Below are positions 5,665 through 16,486 of a DNA stretch of 49,027 nucleotides, in pieces (position 1 is the stretch's first letter; the number at the start of each line of letters is the position of its first letter). Location of the stretch: assembly GCA_016185345.1 (NCBI GenBank), contig JACPNS010000009.1, forward strand, positions 1-49,027, read 5' to 3'. This DNA comes from Solirubrobacterales bacterium. GTDB taxonomy: Bacteria > Actinomycetota > Thermoleophilia > Solirubrobacterales > JACPNS01. The position numbers and the translations under genes were made by a program. Below the pieces are notes generated by a model. The model worked only from the letters and a program-made list of their open reading frames with translations. It had not been told where the DNA came from and ran no database searches.

Positions 5665-7437
5665 ATGCAGCACGAATCGCAAGACCCCGCCGAACCGGTG
5701 GTCAACCTGACTGAAGAGCGCGGCGGACTGGACAAAATCGCCGTCACCTATCTACGCGTGTCAAGCAGTGCGCAGGCTGATAAGGACTTTGACTCGGAGG
5801 GGTTCTCGCTTCCCGCTCAGCGGCGTGCCTGTGCCGGAAAAGCATCGGCGCTCGGCGCGCAAGTGGTCGACGAGTTTGTCGAGCGAGGAGAGTCGGCTAA
5901 GTCGATGCGTCGTCGAACCGCCTTGCAGGCAATGCTTGAACGAATTAAGGCGGGCGATGTCGACTACGTAATCGTCCATAAAGTCGACCGCCTCGCTCGC
6001 AGCCGACTTGACGACGCAATGATTGTCGAAGAAATTCGCGCGGCGGGCGCGATGTTGGTCTCGGTCAGTGAGAACATCGACGAAACTCCAAGCGGACTCT
6101 TGATGCATGGAATCATGTCGTCGATCGCCGAGTTCTACTCGAGGAACCTTGCAGCCGAGGTGAAGAAGGGAACGCGCGAGAAAGCCCGGCGCGGCGGCAC
6201 GCCGTTTCGAGCACCGATCGGCTACTTGAATGTGACCGAGATGGTCGATGGTCGGCCGGTCCGGACGATTGCCGTCGATCCTGAACGTGCGCCGCTCATC
6301 ACCCACGCGTTCACGATGTACGCGACCGGGAGCTATTCACTTGCTCAGCTCGCCGAATGGTTAGAGGATCGAGGACTGCGAAATCGCCCGACGCGCGGCA
6401 GGGAGCCCCAGCCGATCGGCGTGAACCGACTCGCAGAGATGCTGCGAAGCGACTACTACATCGGAGTCGTCCGATATTCAGGCAAAGTCAGTGAAGGTCG
6501 GCACGAGCATTTGACTGATCCGGTCACATTTCACAGGGTCCAGATGGCTCTCGACAGCCAGCGCCAGTCGGGAGAAAAGAGCTGGCGTCACCACCACTAC
6601 TTGCGAGGCACCGTCTTTTGCGGGACATGCGGTGGTCGACTGACCTACACCCGTGCAAATGGCCACGGCGGAACGTATGAATACTTCGTGTGTACGAGTC
6701 GTCAAAGCAGCGGATGCACGCAGCCATACAGCCGTGTTGAGGCCGTCGAGCTAGAAATTGAGCAGGAGTATCGGAAAATCTCACTCACCTCGGCGCAACA
6801 GGAACGCATTCGAGATGCGATGGCTCGGCATGTAGATGCGCTCGATGACGCGGCTGCGCCGAAACGCCGCAAACTCACTGAAAAACTCGACAAACTGGCG
6901 CACCAGGAACGAAAGCTCCTGCGCGCCCACTACGACGACGAACTCTCAACGGAGTTGTTCTCCGAAGAGCAGCAGCGCATCCAGCGCGAGGTCGCGGCCG
7001 CCGCGCAACACCTGGAGGTCCTCGCGACTGACTACGCGGCCGTGATGGACGCGCTCGATGTCGCGCTCGAGTTATCTGACAACGCCTATGAGGCGTACTG
7101 CATGGCCAAGCCGTCGACTCGACGACTCATGAACCAAGCCATCTTCGAGTGGATCAGGATTGACCACGAGGACGTAGATGCGGTGCGCTACGCAGAGCCT
7201 TTCGCAACGCTGCTCAGCGACGACATCGCACCAGTGCGAGATTCTGCGGGGTCGGTGAACTGTCGTAAAAGAGAAAGAACCCCCACGGCGTCTTCTTGCC
7301 GTGGAGGTTCGAACCTCGAAGTTATGGTGCGGATGAGAGGACTCGAACCTCCACGGGGTTGCCCCCACGGCGACCTGAACGCCGCGCGTCTACCAATTCC
7401 GCCACATCCGCATGTGATGAGACGCGGGTCATGTTAG
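5665..7437 (+). CDS. Large serine recombinase (integrase) with read-through C-terminus
   Basis: This is a large serine recombinase of the phiC31/Bxb1 type. The N-terminal resolvase domain has the nucleophile in YLRVSS (Ser about 33) and the KVDRLARS motif near 110. A recombinase domain follows at about 190-290, then a zinc ribbon with CGTC near 318 and a second Cys pair near 340-350, and a coiled coil at about 375-450. A GGAGGAGG site precedes ATG 5665. The last 50 or so residues come from the tRNA-Leu terminator and the antisense of tRNA-Leu (7328-7411), so the native C-terminus was probably replaced at integration. The likely role is excision and integration of the 1-7.3 kb element. A 29-codon frame starting near 5624 overlaps its start; I do not call it. 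Confidence 0.9.
   Translation: MQHESQDPAEPVVNLTEERGGLDKIAVTYLRVSSSAQADKDFDSEGFSLPAQRRACAGKASALGAQVVDEFVERGESAKSMRRRTALQAMLERIKAGDVDYVIVHKVDRLARSRLDDAMIVEEIRAAGAMLVSVSENIDETPSGLLMHGIMSSIAEFYSRNLAAEVKKGTREKARRGGTPFRAPIGYLNVTEMVDGRPVRTIAVDPERAPLITHAFTMYATGSYSLAQLAEWLEDRGLRNRPTRGREPQPIGVNRLAEMLRSDYYIGVVRYSGKVSEGRHEHLTDPVTFHRVQMALDSQRQSGEKSWRHHHYLRGTVFCGTCGGRLTYTRANGHGGTYEYFVCTSRQSSGCTQPYSRVEAVELEIEQEYRKISLTSAQQERIRDAMARHVDALDDAAAPKRRKLTEKLDKLAHQERKLLRAHYDDELSTELFSEEQQRIQREVAAAAQHLEVLATDYAAVMDALDVALELSDNAYEAYCMAKPSTRRLMNQAIFEWIRIDHEDVDAVRYAEPFATLLSDDIAPVRDSAGSVNCRKRERTPTASSCRGGSNLEVMVRMRGLEPPRGCPHGDLNAARLPIPPHPHVMRRGSC
7263..7304 (-). terminator. Rho-independent terminator downstream of tRNA-Leu(CAG)
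   Basis: Read on the minus strand, a 7-bp GC stem (7298-7304 pairing with 7283-7289, 8-nt loop) is followed by a few Gs and then a U-rich tract ttctttctctttt. This is the layout of an intrinsic terminator for the tRNA. The tract resembles the one at 21837. Confidence 0.65.
7299..7356. repeat. 14-bp inverted copy of the tRNA-Leu T-arm; candidate attachment site
   Basis: The 14-mer ccgtggaggttcga at 7299-7312 is repeated in inverted orientation at 7343-7356 inside the T-arm of tRNA-Leu(CAG). Within it, 7304-7317 is a perfect 14-bp palindrome (gaggttcgaacctc). The repeat sits at the end of the serine recombinase gene, where an attachment junction is expected. That it is the crossover core is inference; the other end of the element is not in the window. 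Confidence 0.45.
7328..7411 (-). tRNA. tRNA-Leu(CAG)
   Basis: The acceptor stem is GCGGATG/CATCCGC with discriminator A. There is a long class II variable arm, the loop TTCAGGT gives anticodon CAG, and the T-arm contains GGTTCGAGTCC. CCA is not encoded. The recombinase frame runs across the whole gene on the other strand, which marks this tRNA as the likely insertion site of the mobile element. Confidence 0.95.
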
Positions 7438-9950: not shown

Positions 9951-10934
9951 CTATTCATCCTCGGATACTTGGAGCACAACCTTGCCGGTCGCTTTGCGAT
10001 CGTCGAGCAGCTGCAGCGCATCGGCCGCATCCTCAAAGTTGAAGACCTTGCCGATCAGCGGCTTGATCTCGCCGCGGGCCGCCATTGCGTTCACGGTCTC
10101 GCCGATCTCGTGCGCGAGCTCGGGCCTGGTGCCGACAAAGGCGCCCCAAGCGACGCCGACAACAGATGTGTTGCGCAGCAGGAGGCGGTTGACCTTGACC
10201 TCCGGGATCGAGCCCTCGGCGAATCCGACCACAAGCAGGCGCCCACCTTCGGCGAGCGCGCGAAGGTTGTCGATGAAGCGCTTCCCGCCGACTGGATCGA
10301 GCACGACATCAACGCCGCGCTTCTCAGTCATTTCCTTGACCCGCCCGAGCCACTCGTCGCCGCCGGAGAAGACGATCTCGTCGGCGCCGGCCTCGAGCGC
10401 GACCTCGGCCTTCTCGTCCGATGAAACCGCAGCGATCACGCGCGCGCCCATCGCCTTTGCAATCTGAATCGCTGCGGTGCCCACTCCCCCAGCCGCGCCC
10501 TGGACCAACACCGTCTCACCACTCTTCAGTTGCCCGCGATCACGCAGTGCGAACAAGGCCGTGTGGTAATTGATGATCAGCGCCGCGCCCTCGTGGTAAT
10601 CGAATTCGTCCGGCAGCTTGAAGGTCATCAAGGGGGAAGTCACGACCTGCTCGGCGTACGCGCCGAGCGACAGAAATGCAACGCGATCGCCAACTGCGAA
10701 GCCGCTGCCCTCTGGCGCGTGAGCGACGCGGCCGGCGCCTTCGGATCCGAGCGTGAACGGCGGCTCGGGTTTGATCTGGTATTCGCCCTTGCTCAGCAGC
10801 AGATCAGGGAAAGACACCCCGGCCGAGCGCACATCGACGATCAGCCCGTGCTCGTTGGCCTCGGGCGCAGAGACTTCTTCCTCAACAGCATCTGCCGGGC
10901 CGCCGCCCGCCACGTTCATTCTGATCGCCCGCAT
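9951..10934 (-). CDS. Quinone oxidoreductase-like MDR dehydrogenase
   Basis: This 327-residue medium-chain dehydrogenase/reductase belongs to the NADPH:quinone reductase branch. The N-terminal GroES-like part has LGSEGAGRV near 62-70 and VGDRVAFLS near 81-89. The Rossmann nucleotide-binding motif VQGAAGGVGTAAIQIAK lies near 144-160. No zinc-binding cysteines are seen, as expected for this branch. Its natural substrate cannot be read from sequence. It precedes the peroxiredoxin gene without a gap and lies 176 bp downstream of tRNA-Pro; that spacer holds no gene. Confidence 0.85.
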   Translation of the reverse strand: MRAIRMNVAGGGPADAVEEEVSAPEANEHGLIVDVRSAGVSFPDLLLSKGEYQIKPEPPFTLGSEGAGRVAHAPEGSGFAVGDRVAFLSLGAYAEQVVTSPLMTFKLPDEFDYHEGAALIINYHTALFALRDRGQLKSGETVLVQGAAGGVGTAAIQIAKAMGARVIAAVSSDEKAEVALEAGADEIVFSGGDEWLGRVKEMTEKRGVDVVLDPVGGKRFIDNLRALAEGGRLLVVGFAEGSIPEVKVNRLLLRNTSVVGVAWGAFVGTRPELAHEIGETVNAMAARGEIKPLIGKVFNFEDAADALQLLDDRKATGKVVLQVSEDE

Positions 10935-11110
10935 GTACTCCCCGATTTCAATTTTGATGGTCAGACACCCTCTTGGACGCGATCTTCGGCGAGTCCTTCA
11001 GCTGATGCATGTAGAAATGACGCTCGACCCGGTCGCGGCGCGCAGCACCGTCTGCCTCACGTCGTTGTCCGACAGTCAGAAAGCCATGTATGCGAGCAAG
11101 TGCGGACAAA

Positions 11111-11184
11111 TCGGGGAGACAGGATTTGAACCTGCGACCGCTCGGCCCCCAGCCGAGTGCGCTACCAGACTGCGCCACTCCCCG
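11111..11184 (-). tRNA. tRNA-Pro(GGG)
   Basis: Acceptor stem CGGGGAG/CTCCCCG, discriminator A, anticodon loop CTGGGGG (GGG) on a CTCGG/CCGAG stem, and T-loop TTCAAAT. It begins 18 nt after the stop of the DUF1330 gene on the same strand, as part of a tRNA/protein mixed cluster. Confidence 0.95.
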
Positions 11185-11202
11185 GTCAGGGATGGATGGT
11201 AC

Positions 11203-11568
11203 CTAGCCCCAGGGTGTCGTGGCCTGAAGCACGGCGTCTGCCAGACCTTCGGTGCGCAGATGGGTGATCTCCTGGTAGCTGGGATCCATCACCATCTCGA
11301 GGAATTTCTGGCGACTTGGGTAGCGGACAAGCAGGACCGCGTCCCATTCGTGGCCGGCATCTGCGATCACCGCGGTTGAGCAGTCGCCCGCGTAGACAAC
11401 CTCGCCGCCGACGCGCTCGAGGTGCGCCTGCACCGCTTCCGCGTACTTGTCGTATGACTCCTTGCCACCGCTCCCGCCGTAGCGCAGCAGGTTGAGCATC
11501 ACCACCGGTCCGCCCTCGTCCTCTTCGACATAGCGCCGGACGTCGTCGGGAGTCGGATCAACCGGCAT
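11203..11568 (-). CDS. DUF1330-like small protein
   Basis: A 121-residue protein resembling DUF1330, a ferredoxin-like alpha+beta fold related to dimeric barrels. The central parts are VVMLNLLRY near 22-30 and AVLLVRYPSRQKFLEMV near 77-93. I choose ATG 11568 because the upstream open frame overlaps the SRPBCC gene and shows no protein-like composition. The gene overlaps the SRPBCC stop by 11 bp and is therefore coupled to it. tRNA-Pro follows 18 nt after its stop. No catalytic function is established for the family. Confidence 0.8.
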   Translation of the reverse strand: MPVDPTPDDVRRYVEEDEGGPVVMLNLLRYGGSGGKESYDKYAEAVQAHLERVGGEVVYAGDCSTAVIADAGHEWDAVLLVRYPSRQKFLEMVMDPSYQEITHLRTEGLADAVLQATTPWG

Positions 11569-12043
11569 AGTGCTTTCGCGTGTCAGTGAAGAGCGATCCC
11601 AGCAGGCGCTTGTTGATCGCGTCCCCGGGCTTGCCGATGGCGCTGGGCTCGTAAGCGATCGTCCACGTGAACTTGCAGCTCGTTTCAGACACGGGCTCAA
11701 CGACGTAGTCCTCGGCAAAGCGTTTGACCATCGGCGCACTGGCTTCGAGCACATAGAAGGACATGCGGCGCCCCTCATCCCATATGAAGAAGTGCTCGCG
11801 AAACTTGTTGGCACCCTTGAGCGCCGAGACGGTCCGCGTGGTTCCGACGCCGTGCGGCGGGTCGGAGGTCCAACTGATCCCCTTGCCGATGATGCGGCAC
11901 CACGAGAGAGGATGGAGCGCTGTCAACTCCTTCCAAACTTCCGCCGCCGGGCGATTGACCTCGAAGGTCTCGACCAGTCGCACGGGCGCCGACTCGAAGA
12001 ACGACTCATCGACGGGTTCGGTCTTGAACCAAGGCAATTTCAT
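11558..12043 (-). CDS. SRPBCC (START-like) family protein
   Basis: This 161-residue protein has the SRPBCC lipid/ligand-binding fold. The first strand is LVETFEVNRPAAEVWKEL near 23-40, the middle segment is VGTTRTVS, and the C-terminal helix begins near residue 135. Members bind hydrophobic ligands or act as aromatase/cyclase-like proteins; the ligand here is unknown. The ATG at 12043 is one base after the 3' end of tRNA-Gly (12045), and no ribosome site is possible outside the tRNA. Translation must therefore be leaderless after tRNA processing, or coupled. No other ATG or GTG precedes the domain. Confidence 0.85.
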   Translation of the reverse strand: MKLPWFKTEPVDESFFESAPVRLVETFEVNRPAAEVWKELTALHPLSWCRIIGKGISWTSDPPHGVGTTRTVSALKGANKFREHFFIWDEGRRMSFYVLEASAPMVKRFAEDYVVEPVSETSCKFTWTIAYEPSAIGKPGDAINKRLLGSLFTDTRKHYAG

Positions 12044-12044
12044 A

Positions 12045-12115
12045 AGCGGGCGACGGGAATCGAACCCGCCCTAAGAGCTTGGAAGGCTCCTGTGCAACCA
12101 CAACACCTCGCCCGC
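12045..12115 (-). tRNA. tRNA-Gly(TCC)
   Basis: Acceptor stem GCGGGCG/CGCCCGC, discriminator T, anticodon loop CTTCCAA (TCC), and T-arm GGGTTCGATTCCC. It sits 13 nt after the cupin stop and one base before the SRPBCC start, on the same strand as both. CCA is not encoded. Confidence 0.95.
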
Positions 12116-12128
12116 AGGGTGAACAAGT

Positions 12129-12569
12129 TTACGCGTCGTCTTTCAGTATCTGCTTGAAGCCGTCAGCGTCGTTGCGCCGATGGCTCACAAGTGTCTCGCC
12201 AGTGTCGAGATACTTCACCACGTCGGTCGAGTCTCCAGCGCTGATTGCAAGAAAGCGGATAACCGAATCCGACTTGTTGATCAACTGGTGCGCACCCTCG
12301 GGTCCGACCGGGAAACTCACGATGTCTCCGGCGGCGAGCTCACTCGTTCCGTCGGGAGTGCGAAGCGTTGGCGCGCCCTGGATGACGACCAGCAGCTCCT
12401 CTTCGCCGTAGTGGAAGTGGTACTTGTAGGCCGTCGCGCCCGGCTCCAACTCCCATACGGTGGCGCCGATTCGATCGGAGCCCGCCTTACGGCCGACGAA
12501 GTCCTGGCGTTTGATCGCCCCATCGCCGTCGCGCTCGGTGTCGAACTCGGGATCGAAGATGTTCGGCAT
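12129..12569 (-). CDS. Cupin-domain protein
   Basis: A 146-residue single-domain cupin. Metal-ligand motif 1 is visible as YHFHYGEEE near 49-57 (two His and a Glu), and motif 2 as GPEGAHQLIN near 89-98. The length and the conserved barrel suggest a small metal-binding protein; the substrate is unknown. It begins 27 nt downstream of tRNA-Trp and ends 13 nt before tRNA-Gly, so it is likely made from a transcript that also yields both tRNAs. The ATG at 12569 is preceded by only a weak ribosome site. Confidence 0.85.
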   Translation of the reverse strand: MPNIFDPEFDTERDGDGAIKRQDFVGRKAGSDRIGATVWELEPGATAYKYHFHYGEEELLVVIQGAPTLRTPDGTSELAAGDIVSFPVGPEGAHQLINKSDSVIRFLAISAGDSTDVVKYLDTGETLVSHRRNDADGFKQILKDDA

Positions 12570-12596
12570 GAATACCCCGCAGGAGAAAAGAGAAGG

Positions 12597-12670
12597 CGGG
12601 CCAGCCAGGACTCGAACCTGGAATCCCCGGTTTTGGAGACCGGTGCCTTAGCCAATTTGGCCACTGGCCC
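12597..12670 (-). tRNA. tRNA-Trp(CCA)
   Basis: Acceptor stem GGGCCAG/CTGGCCC with discriminator G, as usual for tRNA-Trp. The anticodon arm is CCGGTCTCCAAAACCGG (anticodon CCA) and the T-arm CCAGGTTCGAGTCCTGG. It is the first visible gene of the tRNA/protein cluster that runs leftwards to about 11111. The 104 bp upstream to 12775 show no gene and should hold its promoter. Confidence 0.95.
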
Positions 12671-12774
12671 GCGCGGGCGCAAGTTTACCCGGGCGGCATC
12701 CGAGCAGTAATCTCGTGCAGGATCAAGGGCAGCTGCGACGGGCTCTGTGAAGTTCAGCCTGATGAAGATGTAAG

Positions 12775-13386
12775 TCAGCCGATGCGGCGCGCCGTCAGCC
12801 AGTTGAAAGACTGCTGATTGCCGCCGGGTGTTTGGTGCAGCTCGTGCATTTCGCTGACGAATTCAAACTCTGGCCCCAGAAACGTCCGCAGATCTTCGGC
12901 CGAGTAGCGCCGCACAGTCAGTCCGGAGCAACGCTCGGGACCGTCCTCGGCGAACGTACCGATCACCGCATGTCCGCCGATCTCCAGCACAGATCGGAGC
13001 GCGTCCAGATACTGCGCCCGCTCATCATCTTCCGTGAGGAAATGGAGCACGGCGCGATCGTGCCAGACGTCGTAAAGCTCGGGTGACCGCCATTCGAGCA
13101 GGTTCGCGACGATCCAATCCACCTGTTCTGCCGCCGCACCCAGACGGTGGCGACTTATCGCCAGGCCGTTGTCGGCAAGGTCAAGAACTGCGACTTTGCG
13201 GTGACCGCTTGCCAGCAGACCATCGACGAGCGTTGAAGACCCGCCGCCCACATCAATCACTGAGGCGTGCGGGGCGGCGACTTTCTGAATCAGCTCGAGC
13301 GACGTGGTCGCCTCCGACTGGTACCAGCTCACGCTTGCATCGCCGCCGCTGTATGCGGCTTCCCAATGTTCTGCTCCAGCCCTCAT
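12775..13386 (-). CDS. Class I SAM-dependent methyltransferase
   Basis: This 203-residue methyltransferase has the SAM-binding motif VIDVGGGSS near 43-51, motif II AVLDLADNGL near 66-75, and WHDRAVLHFL near 108-117. It resembles small thiopurine/tellurite-type (TehB-like) methylases with an N-terminal HWEAAYSGGD segment, but the substrate is uncertain. The start overlaps the stop of the lysoplasmalogenase-like gene by 4 bp (ATGA), so the two form an operon. Cytoplasmic; no unusual features. Confidence 0.85.
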   Translation of the reverse strand: MRAGAEHWEAAYSGGDASVSWYQSEATTSLELIQKVAAPHASVIDVGGGSSTLVDGLLASGHRKVAVLDLADNGLAISRHRLGAAAEQVDWIVANLLEWRSPELYDVWHDRAVLHFLTEDDERAQYLDALRSVLEIGGHAVIGTFAEDGPERCSGLTVRRYSAEDLRTFLGPEFEFVSEMHELHQTPGGNQQSFNWLTARRIG

Positions 13387-14108
13387 CGTTCTGTAAGTCG
13401 TTCGAGCCCGTCGTAGATCAACGCCTGAGCAAATACGTAGCTGGCGAGCACGAATCCTTCGGCCGCCGCGCGTGCCGTCGGATTAGTCAGAAACGTGCGG
13501 CGGTGCAAGATCGTGCCGTCGGAGGCCATGAAGCTGAGCCCGCCGAGAGCCATTCCGCTGAGCGCCTCCTTTTCAGCAGAAAGCTTTGGATCGGCGAGCA
13601 GCGTCGCGAAGGTCGCGAGGAGCGCGGAGTACGGACCGAGCACTGGGAGCAACTGAGGCTTGGTCACGCCGAGCACTGCGCCGCCTTCGATGAGTCCGGG
13701 CAACCGCTTCAACGCCTCTGACTTCGACGGCCGTGCGCCATGGCGGATGGCCAGCGCGCCAAGCAACAGATGGTTGACCGCAAAGCTCGAGGCGCCGCGC
13801 TGGATCTGGCGATCAGCTGCCCCCTCGTCCTCAGCGAACTCCTCGAACAACATGAACCAGTCGCCGACGAACGAGGCCGCCGCGGCTCCGAGCAGCAAAA
13901 CATTGTCAGTTCGATCGCGAGATCCGCCGGTACGAAGCAGCCCAGCGACGATCGACCCCATCACGAGCGGCTTCGCGACCAGTTCGACGTTTTTGGCCCG
14001 GCGGGCTCCAGCGACAGTCAGCGCCACCGAGGCGGCGAGAAACACGGCGCGCTCCGGTCGCCTGAACGACGGTTTGAGCGCCTCGGATATTGATCGACCG
14101 ATCCCCAT
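13383..14108 (-). CDS. Lysoplasmalogenase-like (YhhN/TMEM86 family) membrane protein
   Basis: This polytopic membrane protein belongs to the YhhN/TMEM86 family, whose studied members hydrolyse lysoplasmalogens. Family-like parts are ELVAKPLVMGS, SFVGDWFMLFEE with the acidic residue of the active region, HLLLGALAI, and GGLSFMASDGTI. About seven hydrophobic helices are present. ATG 14108 gives 241 residues; a GTG at 14141 would add 11. It is coupled to the methyltransferase gene that follows by a 4-bp overlap. Enzymatic activity is inferred from family only. Confidence 0.8.
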   Translation of the reverse strand: MGIGRSISEALKPSFRRPERAVFLAASVALTVAGARRAKNVELVAKPLVMGSIVAGLLRTGGSRDRTDNVLLLGAAAASFVGDWFMLFEEFAEDEGAADRQIQRGASSFAVNHLLLGALAIRHGARPSKSEALKRLPGLIEGGAVLGVTKPQLLPVLGPYSALLATFATLLADPKLSAEKEALSGMALGGLSFMASDGTILHRRTFLTNPTARAAAEGFVLASYVFAQALIYDGLERLTER

Positions 14109-14198
14109 CACAGAACCGCCAGCGTACTGCGCCGATCGCACGCTGGGCAGTAGTCTCCTGCGCCAACAGCCGCACGAAAACTTCAGGAGAACTTTCTC

Positions 14199-14429
14199 AT
14201 GCCTTCCGCAATCCGCAATCTGGTTTTCCTCGTGGTTGCGCTGGCACTGATGATTCCCGCAGCGGCCCTCGCCGAATCGAAGATTTCCGGTTCCTACCAG
14301 GGCAAAGCAAAGTCGCTCGACGGATCGAAGACCTTTGGCACGGCGAAGTTCGTGCAGACCGCATCCAGCGCCGAGAAGTACACCCTCAACCGCGAGGGTT
14401 CGGCGAAGTTCACGCTGAAGAAGAAGTAA
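14199..14429 (+). CDS. Small secreted protein with signal peptide
   Basis: This 76-residue precursor has a clear Sec signal: basic start, hydrophobic core LVFLVVALALMIP and a cleavage site after AAALA near residue 25. The mature 50 residues are basic and beta-rich (KISGSYQGKAKSLDGSK and KFTLKKK at the end), with no cysteine. An AGGAGA ribosome site precedes ATG 14199. I know no family for it. It lies 14 bp upstream of the DUF1232 gene, so co-transcription is likely. Confidence 0.75.
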   Translation: MPSAIRNLVFLVVALALMIPAAALAESKISGSYQGKAKSLDGSKTFGTAKFVQTASSAEKYTLNREGSAKFTLKKK

Positions 14430-14443
14430 GCGCGGCGGAGGGA

Positions 14444-14851
14444 ATGCTCGTCGACGCGCTCATCGCGATCGTCATATCACTGACGGTGGTCTGGCTGGTG
14501 ATTGCGCTCGTCCTGGTCGTCAAGCGACCTGACCGAGAGACCATCGCCGCGGTCGCCAAACTCCCCGGCGAGCTGGTCAGCATGATCCGAACGCTTCTCC
14601 GCGAAGACCAGCTCCCACGCGCAGCTCGCATCCGCCTGTGGATTCTGCTCGGCTATCTGATCTCGCCGATTGACCTGGTTCCCGACTTCATTCCGGTCAT
14701 CGGATACGCAGACGACGTGATCGTGACCGCAATCCTCTTGCGCGGGACGGCGCGATCGGTCGGGGCGGACGCGCTGAGAGAGGCATGGCCCGGAAGCTCG
14801 GACAATCTCAAGGCCATTCTACGGCTCTGCGGAATCTCTGATCGGTCCTGA
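14444..14851 (+). CDS. DUF1232 (YkvA-like) membrane protein
   Basis: A 135-residue protein with an N-terminal transmembrane helix (about 5-27) and a DUF1232 domain. The domain signature LLGYLISPIDLVPDFIPVIG lies near 69-88 and ends in YADD. ATG 14444 is chosen because GGAGG sits just upstream; the longer frame from 14090 would pass through the secreted-protein gene. Function of the family is not established. The gene converges on tRNA-Leu(TAG), with only 13 bp between the stop and the tRNA 3' end. Confidence 0.85.
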   Translation: MLVDALIAIVISLTVVWLVIALVLVVKRPDRETIAAVAKLPGELVSMIRTLLREDQLPRAARIRLWILLGYLISPIDLVPDFIPVIGYADDVIVTAILLRGTARSVGADALREAWPGSSDNLKAILRLCGISDRS

Positions 14852-14864
14852 ACCGGCAATCCAG

Positions 14865-14948
14865 TGCGGGTGGAGGGACTCGAACCCCCACGAGCTTTCG
14901 CCCACCAGCTCCTAAGGCTGGCGCGTCTACCAATTCCGCCACACCCGC
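14865..14948 (-). tRNA. tRNA-Leu(TAG)
   Basis: Acceptor stem GCGGGTG/CACCCGC, discriminator A, D-arm TGGCGGAATTGGTAGACGCG, anticodon loop CTTAGGA (TAG), and a long class II variable arm. It converges with the DUF1232 gene. Confidence 0.95.
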
Positions 14949-15012
14949 GCATTTGAATCGTGTCAATCAGGCGTTTGGCAAGCGCCCGCGGGAGAGTCTA
15001 GACTTGCATCCG

Positions 15013-15552
15013 ATGCTGTGGGAGGACGTAAAAGCATCTGAGGAAAAGCCGCCTGTCCGACACCCCAACAGGGATCTGCCGGAATCGCATACGGCCCGAC
15101 TTGGAGTTGTAGGCATGCTCGCATTGAGCGTGGCGATGCTGCTCGTCGTCGCCCTCGGTGGCTGGAGCCTGCTCGTCGGCGCAAAGATGCCGGTTCTGGT
15201 CTTCGCGGTCATCTACGCCGTCATGGCGTGGGCTGTCTGGGAGTGGCGCCGCGGCGTACTTCCGGTGATCGCGGCGCTCGCGGTCATCCTTGCAGTCTTC
15301 GCACTCGTAGCTGGCCCAGATTGGTTTGCACGCGACAAGGTCGGCTACAACGACCCGACGCTGCCTTCCGCACTGCTTGGCCTGGTCACGCTGGCCCTGA
15401 TCCCGACGCAGATGCTTTTGATCTTCGTCTCCACGTGGGCCTTCAACCAGAAGTGGAACGTCGAGGAAGAGATTCATCCCGACGAACCCGATTGGCCCGC
15501 AGATCGCGCTCGGCCAGCCGTCATGCCGTCGGCCCCCGCGCCCGCTCGCTAA
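15013..15552 (+). CDS. Four-helix membrane protein, unknown function
   Basis: A membrane protein of 179 residues if started at ATG 15013. Four hydrophobic helices lie near 28-52, 55-73, 80-97 and 115-140, with a soluble Pro/Glu-rich tail. A TTG at 14953 would add 20 residues but lies almost against the 5' end of the divergent tRNA-Leu, where the tRNA promoter should be, so I prefer the ATG. The sequence MLWEDVKASEEKPP at the start suggests a short cytoplasmic N-terminus. I do not recognise the family. tRNA-Leu(CAA) follows 16 nt after its stop on the same strand. Confidence 0.7.
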   Translation: MLWEDVKASEEKPPVRHPNRDLPESHTARLGVVGMLALSVAMLLVVALGGWSLLVGAKMPVLVFAVIYAVMAWAVWEWRRGVLPVIAALAVILAVFALVAGPDWFARDKVGYNDPTLPSALLGLVTLALIPTQMLLIFVSTWAFNQKWNVEEEIHPDEPDWPADRARPAVMPSAPAPAR

Positions 15553-15568
15553 TTTCTTCACGCACCCT

Positions 15569-15651
15569 GCCCGGGTGGCGGAATCGGTAGACGCGCGGCA
15601 CTCAAAATGCCGTGTCCTTTGGGCGTGAGAGTTCGAGTCTCTCCCCGGGCA
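15569..15651 (+). tRNA. tRNA-Leu(CAA)
   Basis: Acceptor stem GCCCGGG/CCCGGGC, discriminator A, anticodon loop CTCAAAA (CAA) on a CGGCA/TGCCG stem, and a class II variable arm. The acylphosphatase ATG starts two bases after its 3' end, and a membrane-protein gene ends 16 bases before it. CCA is not encoded. Confidence 0.95.
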
Positions 15652-15653
15652 CT

Positions 15654-15929
15654 ATGAGTTCAGTTGTTCACGCGCGAGTCGTCGCACACGGCCGCGTCCA
15701 AGGAGTCTTTTATCGCGACACGATTCGGCGTGCCGCCGAGTTGCGTGGTGTCGGCGGATCAGCCGTGAATCTGCCCGACGGAACCGTCGAATGTCACTTC
15801 GAGGGCTTCAGGCCGCCGGTAGAAGAGATGATCGATGTTGCGCGCGTGGGTTCACGCGGCGCAGATGTCGAGCGCGTTGACGTCGATTGGTCCGAACCGG
15901 AGGGAATCACCGAGTTTTCGACGAGTTGA
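15654..15929 (+). CDS. acyP: Acylphosphatase
   Basis: This 91-residue acylphosphatase hydrolyses carboxyl-phosphate bonds. The active-site region is GRVQGVFYRD at 13-22 with the catalytic Arg at 21, and the catalytic Asn is at 39 in GSAVNLPDGTVE. The usual G-W-V-R-N is altered to G-S-A-V-N but the Asn is kept. The start ATG 15654 is only two bases after the tRNA-Leu(CAA) 3' end and has no ribosome site outside the tRNA. The frame is open upstream through the tRNA, but those codons are tRNA sequence. Length is normal for the family. Confidence 0.9.
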   Translation: MSSVVHARVVAHGRVQGVFYRDTIRRAAELRGVGGSAVNLPDGTVECHFEGFRPPVEEMIDVARVGSRGADVERVDVDWSEPEGITEFSTS

Positions 15930-15943
15930 ATCTGCGAGCCGAC

Positions 15944-16486
15944 TCATAGAGACAGCTGTTTCTTAAGCCCTTCCAACATTGCCTTGACTCGCTCAATTTG
16001 TTCGTCGCCGATCGGCAGCTCATCGGCCCGAGCGTTCAGGATGTCGAGCTCAACAATCCCCTCGCGGATCGCCGCCTTCGCAAACTCCCAGTCGCGGTCG
16101 CGGCCAGCGGCGCACTTAGAGAGGACGAGATCATGCGCCTCGAGACACTCGGCGGTTACCTCTTGACCGGAAAGCGTTTCGAGTTCAAGCTTCACCAGCC
16201 GATCTTCCCAGCCCGCTGGGCATTTTGCTGTCTCCGGTCCCACACCGTGGGCGTAGTAGCCGAATGTTTCTTGAAATATCGAACCTTCGCCTATCCCGCC
16301 GTCCACCTGTATTGCCTTCGAGGGCGCGTCTGCGGGATACAAGTCCGCTTCCATCGAGAACACCATCTCTTCGGGAAGGTCTTCCCGAGTGCCAAGGATC
16401 GCCTGACTTCCAACCACGATGAATCGAGTCTCTTTGGTTATGTCCGCGGAGGCCCGAACGACGTGAATCAACTCATCGCGATTCAA
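15944..16486 (-). CDS. DUF6036-type nucleotidyltransferase (possible toxin)
   Basis: A 180-residue protein of the DUF6036 nucleotidyltransferase-like group. The N-terminal segment FIVVGSQAILGTREDLP at about 22-38 has the G-S core of such folds, followed by the acidic strand SMEADLYP near 44-51. Its start overlaps the stop of the HTH gene at 16483 by 4 bp (ATGA). Comparable nucleotidyltransferases paired with DNA-binding proteins act as toxin-antitoxin or abortive-infection modules (the AbiE/MenAT type), but the classic second catalytic acid is not obvious here. The location between a tRNA and an IS relic fits an accessory module. The toxin role is inference. Confidence 0.7.
   Translation of the reverse strand: MNRDELIHVVRASADITKETRFIVVGSQAILGTREDLPEEMVFSMEADLYPADAPSKAIQVDGGIGEGSIFQETFGYYAHGVGPETAKCPAGWEDRLVKLELETLSGQEVTAECLEAHDLVLSKCAAGRDRDWEFAKAAIREGIVELDILNARADELPIGDEQIERVKAMLEGLKKQLSL

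Follow-up and report, generated by a model that had tools for sequence, protein, structure and literature searches.

Layout of the tRNA-Gly(UCC) locus

The window analysed here is one entire contig (C9, 49,027 bases) of a 2.43-Mb genome (G000), whose assembly is 96.74% complete. On its minus strand lie, in this order, tRNA-Trp(CCA) (12595..12670), a cupin gene (12129..12569), tRNA-Gly(UCC) (12045..12115), an SRPBCC gene (11558..12043), a DUF1330 gene (11203..11571) and tRNA-Pro(GGG) (11111..11184). This tRNA-Gly occurs once among the 40 tRNAs identified in the genome, encodes no CCA, and has an acceptor stem of seven pairs (GCGGGCG/CGCCCGC) followed by a discriminator T at 12045. A single T (12044) separates it from the ATG of the SRPBCC gene (12043..12041), exactly the one-base spacing described in the initial annotation, and the accompanying claim that a ribosome site could find space only within the tRNA was borne out too, as the tRNA abuts the message directly.

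The SRPBCC gene encodes 161 amino acids, and its product belongs to the Polyketide_cyc2 family (PF10604; 45.8 bits against a cut-off of 27.4, residues 21-146). The DUF1330 gene (PF07045, 33.9 bits) overlaps its end, and we infer that it forms the second cistron of the same mRNA; tRNA-Pro(GGG) follows 18 nt past it. On the other side of tRNA-Gly, a -10-like box, TAAACT (12126..12131), begins 16 nt 5' of the mature end, and the cupin reading frame stops at its TAA. Both this box and the single T recur in the sister species G001. No terminator fits between the tRNA and the SRPBCC gene, where there is no space for a promoter either, and a scan of positions 10900-16100 returned two terminator-like matches, both within the cupin gene, compared with 3.7 in shuffled sequences. 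Predicted RNA folds of the junctions were not unusually stable (z -1.37, -0.73, -0.04, and -0.06), and the bases from the discriminator to just beyond the ATG were left unpaired.

tRNA-Pro(GGG) is a habitual neighbour of this tRNA-Gly in the order. Of 30 loci examined, 29 contain tRNA-Gly(TCC); tRNA-Pro(GGG) is the next tRNA in 27 of these and is no more than 60 nt away in 19. It therefore seems that the SRPBCC and DUF1330 genes lie within a long-standing pairing of tRNA-Gly with tRNA-Pro, which would explain why they touch one tRNA and nearly touch the other. In several genomes of the order tRNA-Trp, tRNA-Gly, and tRNA-Pro lie near one another, and the genus of the window fills both gaps with protein genes (11111-12670).

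Start codon, putative tRNA promoters and 3' processing signals

The SRPBCC reading frame stays open for nine codons upstream into the tRNA (open frame of 170 amino acids), and these nine codons, read by eye, hold no ATG, GTG, or TTG, so that 12043 is the first possible start. The sister species, whose SRPBCC protein is 86% identical, has an identical tRNA-T-ATG junction, and the first 12 residues of the two proteins are the same. In G004, another member of the genus, the SRPBCC protein (64% identity) has an N-terminus of the same kind (MK.P.FK.EPVD), encoded behind a 119-nt spacer in which a GGAGAAG ribosome site immediately precedes the same Met and so establishes which codon is the start. 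Judged from these alignments, the SRPBCC protein starts at 12043. Since dN/dS between G000 and G001 is about 0.11 (dN 0.094, dS 0.84), the protein is evidently used. No match to it was obtained in G002 and G003, the remaining two genomes of the genus.

Most tRNAs of this genome seem to have promoters of their own, because a TANNNT box starts 12-19 nt before the mature 5' end of 31 of the 40, tRNA-Gly(UCC) and tRNA-Leu(CAA) included, against 0, 1, 3, and 3 of 40 in control windows. A strict sigma-70 two-hexamer scan of positions 10900-16100 detected no promoter-like site before either of these two tRNAs and gave a single match, at 14975 (shuffles 0.7). As a separate observation, the tRNA-Gly(TCC) promoter of G004 (a TATGCT box plus the first seven tRNA bases) is contained in 31-bp tandem units (L003, about 1218-1310).

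CCA is not encoded in 39 of the 40 tRNAs, the one exception found in the genome being tRNA-Leu(CAG) at 7325-7411 of the window. The genome has a gene for RNase Z (TIGR02651, 322.8 bits, cut-off 292.95) and two matches to PF01743, the family of CCA-adding enzymes and poly(A) polymerases. RNase Z cuts CCA-less pre-tRNA directly after the discriminator and is hindered by C residues there, according to the accessible part of PMC7479834. tRNA-Gly(UCC) has the features of such a substrate: it lacks CCA, no CC follows its discriminator, and the enzyme gene is present. All 39 CCA-less tRNAs carry a pyrimidine at +1 after the discriminator, versus 52.5% pyrimidines at +3..+20, and the lone T in front of the SRPBCC start codon seems to be the minimum demanded by the tRNA enzyme. 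A repeat of at least about 130 bp, beginning TGTGATGTGTCGGGACATCGGAGACAG, was also noticed a few nucleotides after the discriminators of tRNA-Gly-GCC, tRNA-Ser-GCT, and tRNA-Leu-TAA; each copy lies at a contig end of G000 (C4, C14, and C5; L015 end, L032 start, and L035 start), and it looks like a mobile element sitting at tRNA 3' ends.

In the available portions of two reports, CCA-bearing tRNAs are mostly or often cut between the two Cs, that is, one base past the discriminator, in Streptomyces (PMC4681348) and also in Cutibacterium (PMC3848588). Two points from the same excerpts count against a tRNA-made message: several CCA-less tRNAs of S. coelicolor are cut a few nucleotides downstream (PMC4681348), which here would destroy the SRPBCC start codon, and Cutibacterium acnes is described as having no obvious RNase Z (PMC3848588).

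Signals for leaderless expression were assessed in 46 ORFs of the window selected by a GC3 rule. The signature of a leaderless gene, a TANNNT box whose first base lies 11-13 nt ahead of the start codon, occurs at 7 of them versus 0-2 in ten displaced controls, while an SD-like 4-mer precedes the start of 20 versus 9-18 in the displaced controls, which means that use of the SD is weak. Judged by the counts of the leaderless signature, the cell can probably use leaderless mRNAs. Such messages have been reported in Actinobacteria, with 707 leaderless of 2,147 mRNAs in C. glutamicum (PMC3890552), 791 leaderless mRNAs in S. lividans (PMC8079986), and 264 mRNAs with leaders under 10 nt in S. coelicolor (PMC4681348).

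A second junction and a survey of the order

A survey of the 40 tRNAs of G000 identified one further ORF of at least 60 amino acids with an ATG within 2 nt of a tRNA. On the plus strand, tRNA-Leu(CAA) (15569..15651, discriminator A at 15651), the only copy of its anticodon among the 40, is followed by a CT gap (15652..15653) and an acylphosphatase gene (15654..15929) whose 91-residue product belongs to the acylphosphatase family (PF00708, 62.7 bits, cut-off 22.5). A -10-like TAATTT box (15550..15555) begins 19 nt before this tRNA, and the upstream ORF ends at its TAA. Both tRNAs are thus preceded by a TAAnnT box that begins 16-19 nt upstream and takes its TAA from the preceding stop, and each is hemmed in by a stop codon on its 5' side and a start codon on its 3' side. 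The box lies at 16-19 nt before tRNA-Leu(CAA) in G000, G001, and G004, at 48 nt in G002, and at 26 nt in G003. The acylphosphatase gene lies 1-6 nt behind this tRNA in all five available genomes of the genus (leaders CT, CT, T, TTTCAG, and TTCTTG), the 1-nt case being that of G004; in the genome with the TTCTTG leader, a TTG three nucleotides past the tRNA is an alternative possible start. Outside the genus, no tRNA was present in the flanks retrieved for the 25 acylphosphatase loci from other genera (30 loci examined).

The 61 genomes of the order were then searched with a pattern that combines a tRNA T-arm, by which the discriminator was placed, with an ATG 0-2 nt past the discriminator. This gave 66 matches in 38 genomes (16 with the reversed pattern), 22 of which are tRNAs by ARAGORN; at 3-5 nt there were 102 matches in 49 genomes. 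Because the T-arm pattern fits 34 of the 40 tRNAs of G000, these counts, which cover ATG starts and leaders of 0-5 nt, are lower bounds. Confirmed ATG sites opened an ORF of at least 88 amino acids in 0/0 cases at offset 0, 10/13 at offset 1, 4/9 at offset 2, 5/21 at offset 3, 8/14 at offset 4, and 6/17 at offset 5; the 22 sites confirmed at 0-2 nt thus include no ATG at offset 0. Across all ATGs of these loci the corresponding background is 34% (3189/9364), a value inflated by internal Met codons.

The position of the ATG by itself was dropped as a statistical signal, as the 13 sites at offset 1 and the 9 at offset 2 are not above a rough chance expectation of about 30 per offset in 61 genomes; this expectation, derived from base composition after the tRNAs of G000, overestimates offset 1 because A at +2 is rare (2/40). 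The signal resides in real genes beside tRNAs rather than in the bare ATG, and its statistics are modest: long ORFs are found at 10/13 sites at offset 1 versus 19/52 at offsets 3-5 (Fisher p 0.0125), or p 0.043 when orthologues are collapsed at offset 1 only (8/11). Leaders of 3-5 nt also precede genes, and there is accordingly no sharp or exclusive preference for one base.

Pfam assignments were made for 20 chosen proteins, 17 of which have a family; several unscanned members of the 33 long ORFs look spurious. Besides the SRPBCC pair of G000 and G001 and the acylphosphatase of G004, the genes at 1 nt encode an alkyl sulfatase (tRNA-Arg), SelA (tRNA-Sec), a class IV aminotransferase (Aminotran_4; tRNA-Lys), an SDR protein (tRNA-Tyr; two genera, one of them Pfam-scanned), a DUF4235 protein (tRNA-Leu-TAA), and a protein of unknown family (tRNA-Thr). 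A SRAP peptidase gene lies 3 nt behind tRNA-Leu(CAA) in two genera, with the profile aligned from residue 1; its second residue is Cys, which we take to be catalytic and which would fix the start. The SelA gene follows tRNA-Sec after one T (L089; G032:C11, 206996-207022, minus strand; PF03841, 387 bits), and a single transcript may carry both this substrate tRNA and the gene of its enzyme.

The results of a wider pattern search of 198 genomes of the phylum were confounded by tRNAs whose encoded CC(A) is followed by TG; among the 30 loci listed, at least 14 are tRNA-ATG junctions at 0-2 nt and at least 3 of these have ORFs of at least 88 amino acids. The three are a GlmU-like ORF 2 nt after tRNA-Gln and a TadA-like ORF 2 nt after tRNA-Ser (L243 and L247, both named by eye), and a 501-codon ORF behind a tRNA-Sec call.

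tRNA 3' processing as a proposed source of leaderless messages

We surmise that tRNA-Gly(UCC) has a promoter of its own and that transcription from it reads through into the SRPBCC and DUF1330 genes, into which the RNA would run on since there is no room for a terminator. RNase P, which trims tRNA 5' ends, would mature the 5' side of tRNA-Gly, and RNase Z or a local equivalent would cut the 3' side, after the discriminator or one base later. The same cut would free the CCA-less tRNA for CCA addition and release the downstream mRNA. If it follows the discriminator, the T at 12044 would be the first base of the message, which would begin 5'-U-AUG; a cut one base later would give exactly 5'-AUG. 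The 5' ends that RNase Z produces carry a monophosphate and lend themselves to leaderless translation, by which the released RNA, with a predicted leader of 0-1 nt, would be read. The acylphosphatase RNA would likewise begin 5'-CU-AUG or U-AUG, with a predicted leader of 1-2 nt. The tRNA would thus both supply the promoter and make the 5' end of the messenger.

The initial annotation had proposed that a tRNA cut makes the mRNA start at or one base before the ATG and that the message is translated as leaderless. The signs in the DNA agree with this: the tRNA lacks CCA and has its own promoter-like box, genes for RNase Z and a CCA-adding-type enzyme are present, the tRNA end contains no -10 box, no second copy of this tRNA was found, leaderless start signals occur elsewhere in the window, and the arrangements are conserved or recurrent in relatives. 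What we infer from them is that the genes are co-transcribed with the tRNA, that the RNA is cut at that base, which sets its 5' end, and that the message is translated without a leader. Of the explanations considered, punctuation by tRNA as in mitochondria, with tRNA 3' processing making a leaderless mRNA, is the best reading of these sequences, and we would give it a probability of roughly two in three; several cases, in place of one, now underlie it. The SRPBCC gene of G004, which does without the tRNA junction behind its 119-nt spacer and ribosome site, counts against it. So do the strict sigma-70 scan, negative before both tRNAs, the greater distance of the box from tRNA-Leu(CAA) in G002 and G003, the number of ATGs beside tRNAs, which is no higher than rough chance, and the genes with leaders of 3-5 nt. 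As for the order as a whole, we only tentatively suggest, and with some doubt, that housekeeping tRNA 3' processing, not a promoter, regularly determines where a group of leaderless mRNAs begins.

The message might instead be translated from the uncut tRNA-mRNA precursor by internal entry at an SD-less start, the tRNA being excised afterwards or from other transcripts. The weak SD use in the window implies that SD-less internal starts may be tolerated, the unpaired bases between discriminator and ATG point the same way, and the downstream cuts in CCA-less tRNAs of S. coelicolor, as excerpted from PMC4681348, shift weight slightly toward it. However, judging from its known footprint size, a ribosome entering here would need to melt the acceptor stem of the folded tRNA; furthermore, tRNA-Gly and tRNA-Leu(CAA) need cutting out because each is the sole copy of its anticodon found, and the precursor must therefore be cut. 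We consider this explanation unlikely.

Passive genome compaction within an old Trp-Gly-Pro tRNA cluster is another, rather improbable, explanation, under which several nucleases would make the 5' end, and either little protein would be made or the coupling would have no role. It fits the usual succession of tRNA-Gly(TCC) and tRNA-Pro(GGG) in the order, with genes in both gaps in the genus of the window, and the ATG counts beside tRNAs that do not exceed rough chance. The dN/dS of the SRPBCC gene, on the other hand, argues that the protein is used, and the acylphosphatase gene has been kept within 1-6 nt of tRNA-Leu in 5/5 available genomes of the genus while the spacer changes.

A promoter inside the tRNA, whose primary transcript would have its first base at or beside the ATG and so be leaderless, would be in line with the leaderless promoter signatures of the window, but we rejected it as very improbable. 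TANNNT marks 93.4% of the leaderless genes of S. lividans in the accessible text of PMC8079986, whereas it occurs in the 18 nt before the ATG at none of the 33 tRNA-abutted sites of the survey (leader of at most 5 nt, ORF of at least 88 amino acids, both window cases included); a -10 box about 11-13 nt before the start, as expected of a leaderless mRNA with its own promoter, is thus absent from 33/33, an SD-like 4-mer is present at 3/33, and a tRNA sequence is not free to drift toward a box. Equally improbable is a later true start, for instance the GTG of codon 21 preceded by an unrecognised ribosome site. It would match the residue where the Pfam domain begins but was rejected because the N-terminus is conserved: residues 1-20 are kept for the most part in G001 and G004, the ribosome site of G004 precedes the same Met, and most changes in the first 20 codons fall at third positions (6/11 with G001, 13/18 with G004).

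If messages are indeed released by tRNA maturation, the synthesis of the encoded proteins would be tied to tRNA output and RNase Z activity, and maturation of tRNA-Sec would release the mRNA of SelA, the enzyme acting on that tRNA. It would also mean that the 3' trailer of a tRNA can serve as a message, explaining start codons that are poorly handled by ribosome-site models, and the case would offer a clean test of whether 5'-monophosphate RNA with 0-1 base before AUG is well translated in Actinobacteria.

No precedent for a bacterial leaderless mRNA arising from tRNA processing was found in the literature searched, which included few subscription journals and no supplementary tables. The predicted messages resemble actinobacterial leaderless mRNAs in having the start codon at or near the 5' end and no ribosome site, but the ends of the latter were mapped to transcription start sites, whereas here tRNA processing would make them, with a monophosphate. 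Mycobacterial leaderless mRNAs are stated, in the available part of PMC4633059, to arise de novo by transcription and not by processing, which counts against our main reading. The predicted cut after the discriminator, with CCA added later, is that of RNase Z maturation of CCA-less pre-tRNA (PMC7479834, in part). Unlike in an ordinary pre-tRNA, the 3' trailer, usually waste, would here be coding mRNA. The housekeeping tRNA enzyme leaves 5'-phosphate ends, unlike MazF. The leaderless mRNAs of E. coli MazF are similar to those predicted here in that a nuclease makes them after transcription, yet MazF is a stress toxin that produces 5'-OH ends (both from the accessible text of PMC3848588), and here a housekeeping tRNA enzyme would do the work.

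By analogy, mitochondrial tRNA punctuation comes closest among known systems. Ojala, Montoya, and Attardi reportedly described it in 1981, with tRNA excision producing mRNA ends that lie at the start codon or close to it. Leaderless translation is regarded by some as ancient, and mitochondria feed it by tRNA excision; a bacterium doing so would offer a simple, testable link from tRNA maturation to protein expression. As in mitochondria, tRNAs flank messages, and their excision and leaderless translation are predicted to set and to use the mRNA ends. Unlike in mitochondria, the host is a bacterium, only a few genes are concerned, each tRNA has a promoter-like box, and the enzyme would be a bacterial RNase Z.
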